A stretch of 51,497 nt of DNA, taken from Clostridiaceae bacterium (GTDB taxonomy: Bacteria; Bacillota; Clostridia; Peptostreptococcales; Tindalliaceae). The notes under the pieces are model-generated. The model was not told the DNA's origin and did not search any database. It saw only the letters and a list, made by a program, of their open reading frames with translations. Numbering within the stretch: the stretch's first letter is position 1; every line of letters starts with the position of its first letter. Position numbers and translations under genes: made by a program. Shown in pieces: positions 27,533-42,951 of the stretch. The stretch covers positions 1 through 51,497 of the forward strand of contig JAABSW010000017.1 in NCBI GenBank assembly GCA_011390155.1, in the 5' to 3' direction.

Positions 27533-30151
27533 TTATCCTAAAGCAGGCCCCTCATTCATATATTTTGATACAATTTTTAACTCATCATTTTCTACTGTTA
27601 CTGTCACATGATGATGGGGGCCAACATTTCCTGCCAACAAGTGTCTTCCCAGTTTTGTTTCCAGTTCTTTTTGAATGAAACGCTTGATTGGCCTAGCCCC
27701 ATACATAGGCGTGTAGGCACGTTCCAGAATAAGCTCTTTGGCATCTTTGGACAATTCGATGGTGATTTGATGGTCTTTTAATCGATGTTCAATTTCCTGC
27801 AGCGAGAGATCAATGATTTCAAAAATTTCTTCCCTTGTTAATGATTTAAACAGCACCGTCTCATCAACCCGGTTTAAAAACTCCGGCCTAAAGCTGTGTT
27901 GTAATTCCCGCTGTATCAATTTTCGTGTTTCCTCAGATATTTCACTGGCTGTTGTTAAATCTTCCAGTATCAACTGACTTCCAATGTTGGACGTCATGAT
28001 AATAATGGCATTCTTAAAGTCGACTGTTCTGCCCTGGCTGTCTGTTAAACGGCCATCATCAAGTATTTGAAGCAAAATGTGAAACACATCAGGATGGGCT
28101 TTTTCAATTTCATCTAACAAAATCACACTGTATGGTTTTCTGCGTACAGCTTCAGTTAACTGGCCGCCTTCTTCATACCCAACGTATCCGGGAGGGGCAC
28201 CCACTAAACGTGAGACAGCAAACTTTTCCATATACTCGCTCATGTCAATCCGTACCATATTGTTTTCTGAATCAAAGATGGAGGCGGCCAAGGCTTTGGC
28301 CAGTTCAGTTTTACCCACTCCTGTAGGACCTAAAAACAGAAAGGACCCGATGGGTCGCTTAGGGTCTTTCAACCCCGACCTGGCACGAATCACGGCATCC
28401 GTAACTGCCTCCACCGCTTCGTTTTGTCCGATGACCCTTTTATGAAGCATTTTATCCAATGACAACAATTTTTCCCTTTCACTTTCCAATAGACGGGAAA
28501 CGGGAATGCCCGTCCATTTAGAAACAATTTCGCTGATTTCTTCCTCCGTGACTTCTTCTTTCACCATTCCATCGCTTTCCCCAGTATCTGCCTTCTTTTG
28601 CAAGGCTTGTAACTGTTTTTCCAAATCAGGCAACTCTCCGTATTTTAAGCGGGCCAGGGTTTCAAGGTCATACTGGCGTTCGGCGTTTTCGATCTGTACC
28701 TTCAATTGTTCAATGGCTGCTTTGATTTCTTTCTGTTTTACCAGGGATTCCTTTTCCTGGTTCCAACGAGCGCTGAGTTGTTCTGTGTTTTCCTTTAACT
28801 GGTTGATTTCTTTTTCCAGTACTTTAAGCCGTTCTTTGGAAGCCTGGTCTTTCTCTTTTAACAACGCCTGTCGTTCAATTTCCAGTTGCATGGTACGTCG
28901 CTGGTATTCATCCAATTCTGCCGGCATGCTGTCAATTTCAGTACGAATCATGGCTGCTGCTTCATCCATTAAATCGATGGCTTTATCCGGTAAAAAACGA
29001 TCAGTGATATAGCGATCTGATAATACAGCACAAGCGACAATGGCATTGTCAGTGATGCGCACACCATGGTGAATTTCAAATCGTTCTTTTAGGCCTCTCA
29101 GAATGGATATAGTGTCTTCCACCGAGGGAGGATCCACCAGCACCTTTTGAAACCTTCGTTCCAGTGCTGCATCTTTTTCAATATGTTGACGATATTCGTT
29201 GAGGGTTGTGGCACCAATACAGTGAAGTTCACCCCTGGCCAGCATAGGCTTGAGAATGTTCCCGGCGTCCATGGCACCTTCTGCTCTTCCTGCCCCTACA
29301 ATGGTATGAAGTTCGTCAACAAACAGGATAATTCTGCCATCAGAATCCACTATTTCTTTTAGAACCGCTTTCAAACGTTCTTCAAATTCGCCCCTGAATT
29401 TTGCACCTGCGATCAACGATCCCATGTCCAGGGAAAAGATGGTTTTGTTTTTAAGCCCTTCCGGTACATCGCCTTTGACAATACGTTGTGCCAATCCCTC
29501 TGCAATGGCAGTTTTACCAACCCCCGGTTCACCAATCAAGACCGGGTTATTCTTTGTGCGACGTGTCAGGATCCGAATCACTCTTCTGATCTCCGCGTCT
29601 CTTCCAATAACAGGGTCCAATTTTCCTTTTTGGGCTTGTTCATTTAAATCACGACCATATTTATCTAACACCTGGTAGGTATCTTCCGGATTCTCAGTGG
29701 TTACCCGTTGACCGCCTCTGATTTTTTTCAACGCTTGTAAAAAGCCATTTTCCGTCACGTGAAACGCCGCAAAAAGTTTGCTGGAAGGCGACTCTTTTTC
29801 ATCCAATAAAGCCAGGTATAAATGTTCCACTGCCACAAAGTCATCCTGGTACATTTTTGCCTTATCTTCAGCTTTGATCATTAATTCATTAAACCGCCTG
29901 GTGGCATAAAGTTGCACGCTTCCACCATGTACACCTGGCATTTTCTCAAGTATTTTGTTAACCCCATCCCGCAAACTATTTAAATCGACATTCATCTCCT
30001 TTAGAATGGTGGAGATTAAACCGTTTTCCTGGTTTAATAAAGCAGCGTGTAAATGTTCTCCGTCAATTTGTTGGTGAGAATGACGCACAGCCAATTCTTG
30101 TGCTAATTCCAATGCTTCTCTTGACTTTTGCGTAAACTTTTCAAGTTGCAT
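27533..30151 (-). CDS. clpB: ATP-dependent disaggregase ClpB
   Basis: 872 residues, standard ClpB length. It has an N-terminal Clp repeat domain (1-145), first AAA+ module with Walker A GEPGVGKT, a long coiled-coil M-domain (about 395-530) that distinguishes ClpB from ClpC, second AAA+ module with GPTGVGKT, pore motif GYVGYEEGG, and the D2 small domain. It works with DnaK and J-proteins to resolubilise aggregates. It lies 65 bases downstream of the J-protein gene cbpA and probably shares its CtsR-controlled promoter. AAGAGGTGA precedes the ATG. Confidence 0.98.
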
Positions 30152-40964: not shown

Positions 40965-41378
40965 ATGTTTAAATGGCAAGAGAGTTTTAGCAGTAACGTG
41001 AAGGAATTTGATGAACAGCATAAAAAATTGTTCGCTTTGGGCAATCAATTACTGGATGTGGTACATGCCAGTCGTAACACAGATCATTATGACGATATCA
41101 TGGAGGCGTTGGATGAACTGAAAGAATACACCGTCTACCATTTTAATGCTGAAGAAGAACTGATGCTAACGTATAATTACCCAAAATTGATGTCACACAA
41201 GATGCAGCATAAGAAATTTCTCGGCAAAGTGGAAGAACTGTTAAGCAAAGACATTGACAAAAACCAGGTTGACGTGACCCTTGAATTGCTAACATTTTTG
41301 GCTGACTGGATTCAAAACCACATTCTTGTGACCGACAGTCAGTATGGTGATTTTTTTAATAAACATGGAGAATATTAG
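40965..41378 (+). CDS. Bacteriohemerythrin (single-domain O2-binding diiron protein)
   Basis: 137 residues, usual single-domain length. The seven diiron ligands are all visible: H19 (DEQHKKLF), H59 and E63 (YHFNAEEE), H78 and H82 (SHKMQHKKF), H119 and D124 (QNHILVTD). It reversibly binds O2 and probably delivers or buffers oxygen, or serves as a scavenger in an anaerobe. The ATG at 40965 is chosen because CAAGGAGG lies eight bases upstream; the frame is open further upstream but crosses the promoter. A bidirectional terminator follows. Confidence 0.95.
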   Translation: MFKWQESFSSNVKEFDEQHKKLFALGNQLLDVVHASRNTDHYDDIMEALDELKEYTVYHFNAEEELMLTYNYPKLMSHKMQHKKFLGKVEELLSKDIDKNQVDVTLELLTFLADWIQNHILVTDSQYGDFFNKHGEY

Positions 41379-41386
41379 CTTTTATG

Positions 41387-41414
41387 AAAAAACTGCCCCT
41401 TAAGGCAGTTTTTT
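41387..41414. terminator. Bidirectional rho-independent terminator
   Basis: AAAACTGCC, a six-base loop and GGCAGTTTT form the stem, with T-runs on both strands. It ends the hemerythrin transcript on the plus strand and the MFS-selenoprotein transcript on the minus strand. Confidence 0.9.
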
Positions 41415-41418
41415 ATTA

Positions 41419-41443
41419 TCTGTCGTATGTTGTCTGTCGTATG
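41419..41443. repeat. 11-bp direct repeat with 14-base period
   Basis: TCTGTCGTATG occurs at 41419-41429 and again at 41433-41443, just beyond the stop of the selenoprotein gene. No function assigned. Confidence 0.6.
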
Positions 41444-41444
41444 C

Positions 41445-41726
41445 TTAAGCTTTCGTCTCAAAGATCGTGTAAAACCACAAAAAGTGGCTGACATGTAACG
41501 TCACCCTCTTTTTTTTGTTCATCAATGATGAGTGGACGTACACTGTGATGTTTTCATTTGTTGTGATGGTTGTATAGAGTGATTCATCTTCCGGGGGTTC
41601 TGTCGTCACCGACGACGTGATAGGATTACCTCAACACCCTTTGGCTTTTGGCAGCTGAAGGGTTAAGGTATCCAACCCTCTTTTTTTCATAAAGCGCACC
41701 AGTTTATCAGTAAGCATTACTTCCAT
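41445..41726 (-). CDS. Probable selenoprotein of the small CC/Se-motif family (in-frame TGA = Sec32)
   Basis: A 93-codon frame starts at an ATG with GAGGG six bases upstream, meets a TGA at codon 32 (41631-41633) and continues 61 sense codons to TAA. The residue before TGA is cysteine, giving G-C-U-G-N-P. The segment before (DKLVRFMKKRGLDTLTLQL) and the segment after (ITVYVHSSL, then VTLHVSHFLWFYTIFE) have the strand-helix pattern I recall for the clostridial CC/Se-motif family, where the position is Cys or Sec in a Cys-Cys/Cys-Sec pair. A stem-loop of bacterial SECIS type begins 15 bases after the TGA. A redox role is inferred. The gene begins 46 bases after the MFS gene and ends at a shared terminator, so both ends make sense as a real transcription unit. 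If selenocysteine were not inserted the product would be a 31-residue stub. Confidence 0.75.
41602..41633 (-). other. Sec TGA codon with putative bacterial SECIS hairpin
   Basis: TGA at 41633-41631 is followed after 14 bases by GTCGTC-GGT-GACGAC (41616-41602), a perfect 6-bp stem with G first in the loop. The loop lies 21-23 bases beyond the TGA, inside the 16-37 base window described for SelB-binding elements. The stem is in the coding frame. Confidence 0.65.
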
Positions 41727-41772
41727 TAATAACCCTCATTTCAATCGTCACATTCCATCCAATCAGAACCTA

Positions 41773-42951
41773 TTAAATGGTGGATGCACCCGCTTTGGGT
41801 GGCAGTTTTCCATCAATCACTTTTAGATAAATCAATACCATTAATCCAGCTAACGTAGATAAACCAAAGAATAAGTACACCGATAAGATGTTTGACACAT
41901 CCAGCAACACCCCGCCAAAAAACTGACAAAAGATGCCACCCATGCCAATACCCGCAGAAGAATACAGTGTCATGGCGGTGGTCTTCAATTCAGGCACAGC
42001 TGCCTCAGACACATACTGGGCAGCACTGACAATGTATAACCCCACAGACAGGCCCTGGACAATAAACAGCAACAGCATAAATTGTGGGGACGGCCCTGTG
42101 CTGTACCATATCCATCGAGCTGCAGAAAGGGCTGTGGCAAATATCATGGTGTTTTCCAGGCCCATTTTTTTTATGATAGGGCCAGAAAGTTTCATCATGG
42201 GCGCCTCGCTGCCGGAAAACAGGAGAAACGCCAAGCCAATCCCAGCCAGGGAACCTCCCACATGCTCAAAGAGCAGGCTGTAATAGTTATTATTGGCCAC
42301 AACTGGGCCGAAGACAAAAAAAGTGCCCAATAAAATTAACCGGTACCTTGGTAAAATGATCAACTTTTTCAAACCAGGAATCAGGGCAATTCTCATTTCT
42401 TCATTTACTTCTTCTTTTTGCCTAAAACCCAGTGAAGCCACCAGGTATGCAAGAAAATAAAAAGGAAAAATGACCCATAAACCAACCCACTCACTGACAT
42501 TACTGACAGTGAACACAGCGATGGCGAATCCGATGGCACCATATTGTCGAAAGTTACCAAAAGTAAGGTTCAGCTTTGCCGCTGCTTTTATGCCCAAAGT
42601 GTCTGATATGGGAGCGTTTGCCCCTTGAAAGATGTGTACCAAGGAGTATAGAAAGAGAAAAATCCAAAAAGAACGAATGAAGGGCAGTATTAAAGCCAAA
42701 CTTCCAGCTATTAAAAGAGAAACTTTCAACACCGTCACCGTTCTTCTAGTTTTGTCACAGATTAAACCCCACAAAGGCTGGGCAAAGATTAACATCAAAG
42801 AGCCCGCAGACATAACCAAACCTATTTGAGTACCTGTAAAACCAATTTGTTCCAAATATAATGCCAGCAGCGAGTACAGCGCACCGATGGCGAAATAAAT
42901 TCCTGCAAATAATAAACGATATTGATTTTGTATATTAATCACTTCCCACAT
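41773..42951 (-). CDS. MFS transporter (LacY/nucleoside-symporter-like, MFS_1_like)
   Basis: 392 residues with about twelve membrane segments. The opening FAGIYFAIGALYSLLALYLEQIGFTG and the first-loop motif PLWGLICDKTRRT are typical of the MFS_1_like group that includes LacY, NupG and HcaT relatives. The transported compound cannot be told. The ribosome-binding site before the ATG is weak; a GTG at codon 4 is an alternative. The selenoprotein gene follows after 46 bases, probably on the same transcript. Confidence 0.85.
   Translation of the reverse strand: MWEVINIQNQYRLLFAGIYFAIGALYSLLALYLEQIGFTGTQIGLVMSAGSLMLIFAQPLWGLICDKTRRTVTVLKVSLLIAGSLALILPFIRSFWIFLFLYSLVHIFQGANAPISDTLGIKAAAKLNLTFGNFRQYGAIGFAIAVFTVSNVSEWVGLWVIFPFYFLAYLVASLGFRQKEEVNEEMRIALIPGLKKLIILPRYRLILLGTFFVFGPVVANNNYYSLLFEHVGGSLAGIGLAFLLFSGSEAPMMKLSGPIIKKMGLENTMIFATALSAARWIWYSTGPSPQFMLLLFIVQGLSVGLYIVSAAQYVSEAAVPELKTTAMTLYSSAGIGMGGIFCQFFGGVLLDVSNILSVYLFFGLSTLAGLMVLIYLKVIDGKLPPKAGASTI

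Follow-up and report, generated by a model that had tools for sequence, protein, structure and literature searches.

Among described systems, the family nearest to the protein studied here is NF041239, the 'CC/Se motif family (seleno)protein', which the accessible sections of a 2026 review catalogue with the motif CxxU and a single selenocysteine (Sec; PMC13188914). Those sections, and the accessible ones of PMC9312934, present it as a hypothetical protein predicted in Moorella thermoacetica and state no functional role for the family; the part of PMC1794560 available to us does not mention the NF041239 protein, and the word Moorella is absent from PMC2398784 and PMC5029168. Here, we analyzed a window—the whole stretch of 51,497 nucleotides from contig JAABSW010000017.1 of a Clostridiaceae bacterium—in which the minus strand between 41726 and 41445 very probably holds, judging from sequence conservation, a gene for a small selenium-containing protein that ordinary annotation would truncate at an internal stop. 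The preliminary description of this locus had pointed to a resemblance to a 'CC/Se motif'. The kinship is genuine, as NF041239 is a real NCBIfam family related to the window protein, although the protein itself scores 36.9 bits, short of the 40-bit cut-off. Its orthologues in the genus also fall below that value (38.9 and 36.3 bits), and two paralogues lie above it (L023, 52.4 bits; L027, 41 bits).

The frame has the layout first proposed for it: 93 codons read from an ATG to a TAA (41445..41726, minus strand), with a sole in-frame TGA at codon 32 (41631..41633), where relatives align Cys or Sec and which we read as putative Sec. It is directly preceded by the TGT codon of Cys31 (41634..41636), the only cysteine of the protein and the partner residue of Sec32. 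Both the ribosome-binding-like GAGGG located 6 nt 5' of the ATG (41733..41737, minus strand) and the terminator-like hairpin (41387..41414, unstranded) situated between the selenoprotein gene and a convergent hemerythrin-domain gene (40965..41378, plus strand) were found, in line with the preliminary description; they are recognized by consensus likeness only, and the GAGGG is retained in the nearest orthologue. Upstream, 46 bases from the ATG, lies a gene for an MFS_1_like transporter (41773..42951, minus strand). The hemerythrin and MFS genes are separated by 394 bases, instead of the 350 bases initially given, and an Rfam scan over 41200-42000 returned nothing at gathering score—only weak matches.

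An open frame of this kind is unremarkable by itself: the window holds five ATG-to-TAA/TAG frames of at least 93 codons with one internal TGA, a count that excludes 41726-41445, since a TGA directly before its leader makes this frame extend upstream when TGA is ignored. A count of frames with Cys before the TGA gave zero in the window and was discarded, since it had missed the 41726-41445 frame itself. Chance is excluded because of homology. The NF041239 profile matches residues 1-87 at model positions 1-85 of 91 (E 2.8e-9, 36.9 bits), and 15 of 41 genomes, counting that of the window, contain relatives whose alignment spans the TGA, with the best relative in another genome reaching an E value of 3.2e-43. 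Orthologues in two other genomes of the genus share 79% and 47% identity, and dN is lower than dS on either side of the TGA. On its 3' side, the three orthologue pairs gave dN/dS values of 0.18/0.50, 0.64/2.73 and 0.64/1.22, the last two being near saturation. Homologues spanning both sides of the TGA, counterparts with Cys in place of Sec (the CC-type relatives described below) and a non-random pattern of substitutions after the TGA, all of which the preliminary description had set out as checks, are thus present. So are selA, selB, selC and selD: contig C28 of the same genome carries selB, selA, the gene for tRNA-Sec (anticodon TCA) and selD within 24.3-30.9 kb. The selD gene (L046, G000:C28:29966-30886) has one in-frame TGA and probably encodes a selenoprotein itself, and one in-frame TGA also occurs in a gene for a HesB-like protein of this genome, a TIGR01911 copy (L111, G000:C94:65342-65575).

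The SECIS-like hairpin (gtcgtc-GGT-gacgac, 41602..41616, minus strand) is a perfect 6-bp stem that begins 15 bases past the TGA, and base 21 past the TGA is the first of its GGU loop—the spacing first reported. The 65-base region around the TGA has an ordinary stability (z +0.49, with 135 of 200 shuffles folding equally well), and 1% of 200 synonymous shuffles matched the hairpin score. The stems of the three genus orthologues read gtcgtc/gacgac, gtcgtc/gacgat and acatcatc/gatgatgt, with a GGU loop in each; from the first to the third, A-T has replaced G-C at two pairs, and the changes on the 3' side cost two Thr to Met replacements. Across 20 distinct CU-type sequences (those with Cys followed by Sec, as in the window), 104 of 140 cells pair, 27 of them with changes on both sides, against maxima of 90 and 14 for slid versions. 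In the 28 CC-type sequences, 76 of 196 cells pair, inside the slid range of 72-91. In CU-type relatives, the hairpin is thus retained with substitutions in both of its arms, and it is not seen in CC-type relatives. Over the family, the mean hairpin score is 14.6 in 121 Sec members (10.5 in synonymous shuffles) versus 9.0 in 34 non-Sec members (8.3 in shuffles), and a Mann-Whitney test on per-locus fractions separates the two groups at p 5e-6, a value uncorrected for sequence kinship. Taken singly, many hairpins of Sec members are unremarkable, with a median fraction of shuffles of 0.19; the fraction is at or below 0.05 in 24% of those with Sec and in 9% of those without. Counted from the UGA, the loop lies at about 23 bases when that codon is at the first motif position (site 1) and at about 20 when it is at the second (site 2)—that is, the hairpin position is fixed relative to the protein while the UGA shifts by one codon.

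To place the window gene in its family, we read 158 loci (28 from the search of 41 genomes, 30 from a sample of the phylum and 100 fetched in addition), 157 of them distinct, of which 122 have an in-frame TGA and 35 have none. A sample of 398 genomes from the phylum contained 89 with an NF041239 match at E up to 1e-5; the matches from this sample left unread are the TAA and TAG copies of G422, two of G091 and one each of G191, G079 and G119 (contig C14), the last of which was subsequently seen in a class-level search. The G422 copies (G422:C13:31701-31967 and 28056-28307), which contain an in-frame TAA and TAG, have probably decayed. One further candidate, L054, was rejected as spurious, its frame lacking the motif. 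Alignment and tree comprise 155 members, fragments L208 and L213 being excluded, and sites 1 and 2 were assigned from an alignment that treated Sec as Cys. In this alignment, 95 Sec residues fall at site 1, 32 at site 2 (the adjacent column) and one elsewhere. The motif occurs as CC in 28 members, UC in 28, CU in 21 and UU in seven; among the others, Sec is accompanied by another upstream Cys (31) or another downstream Cys (14) or stands alone (20), five members have neither residue and one has a different arrangement. The tree requires at least 43 state changes, whereas shuffling gives 102.5 on average; with 83 columns and 67 of the 152 inner branches unresolved, the topology is uncertain and the figure of 43 a lower bound. 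Of the 122 Sec members, 101 have exactly one partner residue, a Cys or another Sec, no more than four positions away (offsets -4 to +4), and 20 have none; the frequency of Cys or Sec is 10.7% within that distance and 0.33% elsewhere. The genome under study contains at least four members, namely the window gene (CU) and copies on contigs C83 (CU), C1 (CU, plus a C-terminal CLC) and C32 (UC). Beside the Sec-type locus L014, we observed a second copy (L072:7043-7333) whose motif contains Ser and has neither Cys nor Sec, as is also the case for L152, L166, L195, L197 and L212.

The UU state deserves separate treatment. Two consecutive in-frame TGA codons are present in seven loci (L199, L200, L214, L215, L217, L218 and L219), in which 44 of 49 hairpin cells pair. 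In the class to which one of these loci belongs, two TGA codons were found in 11 loci from 10 of 26 genomes, adjacent in all 11; the loci of this kind include L260-L269 and L273, and G085, outside that class, has such a pair as well. The UU members form one group on the tree (SH-aLRT 89), beside CC members, and both of those scanned pass the NF041239 cut-off. Going by these sequences, both motif positions appear to hold selenium in some bacteria. A precedent for adjacent Sec-Sec was sought in the literature, and nothing relevant was found among the matches listed, which is weak evidence of absence. On the whole, we consider it quite probable that the family represents an exchange series on one HesB-type scaffold (CC, UC, CU and UU), in which the window protein is the swapped CU form and UU members would read two UGA codons with one hairpin, giving a vicinal Sec-Sec pair (a diselenide).

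Profile and model comparisons indicate that the window protein is likely a divergent member of the HesB/IscA fold. A PDB search by sequence gave two weak, unrelated matches for query A1 and, for the family profile (A8), nothing at E values of 1 or below. An AlphaFold2 model built on six sequences had a pLDDT of 71 and a pTM of 0.61, and its six top Foldseek matches in the PDB were IscA (two entries), SufA, AQ_1857, a Lactobacillus Fe-S biosynthesis protein and the ODPA-YneR model, whose matched chain we take to be YneR. These six have probabilities of 0.82-0.98 and E values of 0.014-0.22, none reaching 0.001, and the later matches listed have probabilities of 0.08 or less. Alignment with VIA-align yielded Z scores of 5.1-6.3 to nine entries of the IscA/HesB fold, in a range (below 8) that can reflect a common arrangement. 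The family profile A8 matched HesB-like selenoproteins over residues 1-89 with a probability of 97.4 (E 9.6e-12), and the three E. coli carriers IscA, SufA and ErpA with a probability of 32. In the profile alignment, the Sec of HesB pairs with Cys31, not with Sec32, and the family alignment likewise puts Cys31 at site 1. Neither TIGR01911 nor PF01521 matched the window protein at E up to 1, and PF01521 matched three of 28 relatives weakly, with a best E value of 0.011. Six loci (L006, L008, L010, L020, L024 and L027) have a C-terminal DPETICLCGG-like tail that resembles, by eye, the CGCG end of IscA.

The genes surrounding the relatives offer a lead on function. Thioredoxin models are the top Pfam family among 91 nearest neighbours, drawn from 47 of 58 loci after removal of 11 near-duplicates: nine of the 91 match, compared with one of 262 genes located beyond 1.5 kb. 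Seven of these nine come from one genome family (L075, L079, L081, L086, L089, L090 and L093), with thioredoxin directly 3' of the gene, and collapsing these one-lineage cases leaves three of 85 (p=0.047). At L103, the upstream gene matches both Trx and TrxB queries; at L102, a Trx-like gene is followed by one that is CcdA-like by eye; and more distant thioredoxin cases are L123, L076 and L097. A separate count within 1.5 kb (nine of 57 loci versus one beyond) was set aside as biased, five loci having been chosen after thioredoxin was seen; without these (L250, L251, L252, L258 and L259), the figures are four versus one. The TrxB match at L058 is circular, its own TrxB, chosen by eye, having served as the TrxB query. 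No thioredoxin gene lies beside the CULAP-type and window-type genes of the genus, the window gene included. At the C1 paralogue, a Trx-like gene and a gene that is TrxB-like by eye are found 0.85-1.5 kb upstream. Genes related to sulfur were also noticed by eye near relatives, i.e., CoA-disulfide-reductase-like, TusA-like and DsrE-like genes at L066 and NifS-like and ThiI-like genes at L063 and L073.

Bringing these elements together, the explanation that we favour, with moderate confidence in it as a whole, combines Sec read at UGA 32, a HesB/IscA-like fold and thioredoxin-fed redox cycling of a Cys-Sec pair. UGA codon 32 would be read as Sec by means of the downstream hairpin and the SelA, SelB, SelC and SelD of the genome itself, a step for which the gene-level evidence is strong. 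According to the profile and model comparison, the Cys31-Sec32 pair would sit in the loop that bears the conserved Cys or Sec of HesB-like proteins. The adjacent residues may then cycle between a reduced thiol/selenolate and a selenenylsulfide, with a thioredoxin-type donor feeding the pair, which in turn would act on a substrate. We propose a reversible Se-S bond because most Sec members have a single partner near the Sec, because CC can replace the pair, and because thioredoxin genes are found nearby. As no thioredoxin gene adjoins the window gene, we infer from the relatives that its product is a thioredoxin-linked thiol/selenol redox protein.

Alternatively, though this is unlikely, the selenoprotein could carry iron or iron-sulfur clusters in the manner of the A-type proteins, liganded by Cys31 and Sec32 and possibly bridging two subunits of a dimer, in keeping with the HesB/IscA-like fold and profile and with a clade of CLCGG/CLCSG C termini (similar by eye to the CGCG of IscA) that includes a paralogue from the same genome. 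However, Cys31 is the sole Cys of the window protein, so the two C-terminal ligands of IscA (the CGC cysteines of A-type carriers) are absent; the protein has no PF01521 match, and the CLCGG-clade profile left the C terminus of the E. coli carriers unaligned (probability 0.5). Vicinal Cys/Sec residues suit soft metals, and it is conceivable, if distinctly improbable, that the pair binds such a metal, or carries sulfur or selenium, instead of passing electrons; some relatives do adjoin sulfur genes (the by-eye cases L066, L063 and L073), but these are single cases, and no family is as common as thioredoxin among the 91 sampled neighbours. A role shared with the MFS transporter, as suggested in the preliminary description, found no support and is highly improbable: the two genes share a strand and are closely spaced both in the window and in G001, and no terminator-like site occurs on their strand within the gap, yet a Cache/histidine-kinase gene of opposite direction stands between them in Anoxynatronum buryatiense, and MFS is outside the 25 commonest of the 120 Pfam families found among the 91 neighbours. 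Finally, the idea that the TGA is a true stop (dividing two short frames, or lying in a decayed gene) or has been reassigned to another amino acid can practically be set aside, for although one-TGA open frames are common by chance in the window and the two halves of 41726-41445 appear as separate entries in the frame list, conservation runs across the TGA, the only other in-frame stops among the listed NF041239 matches are the TAA and TAG of G422, TGA ends five of 33 long window frames and is therefore a stop in this genome, and the genome encodes its own tRNA-Sec.

These findings turn an annotation gap into a gene and indicate that the curated NF041239 model narrowly misses one branch of a selenoprotein family. 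The occurrence of CC, UC, CU and UU on one small scaffold makes the contribution of selenium at each position directly testable, as the UU pairs do for the reading of two adjacent UGA codons, and the HesB-like fold, together with the thioredoxin neighbours of relatives, provides a concrete lead on family function.

In comparison with known systems, the window protein resembles IscA, SufA and ErpA in its predicted fold, but differs from these A-type carriers in the missing PF01521 match and C-terminal cysteines and in the weak profile match. The HesB-like selenoproteins of TIGR01911 are likewise small, with one Sec, and similar at the profile level (probability 97.4), yet they have their own motif, UxGP in the accessible sections of the review (PMC13188914), and their model does not match the window protein. 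With NF041239 it shares length, the match over residues 1-87 and a motif of neighbouring Cys and Sec; it departs from that family in scoring below 40 bits, as its genus orthologues do, and in having Sec at site 2, whereas most aligned family Sec residues are at site 1 (95 vs. 32). The same sections of the review assign NF041239 one Sec (PMC13188914), in contrast to the two candidate Sec residues of UU members. The family was thus already known by name; the present analysis contributes the likely HesB-like fold, the pair with its four states and the UU branch, part of which may be familiar to the NF041239 curators.
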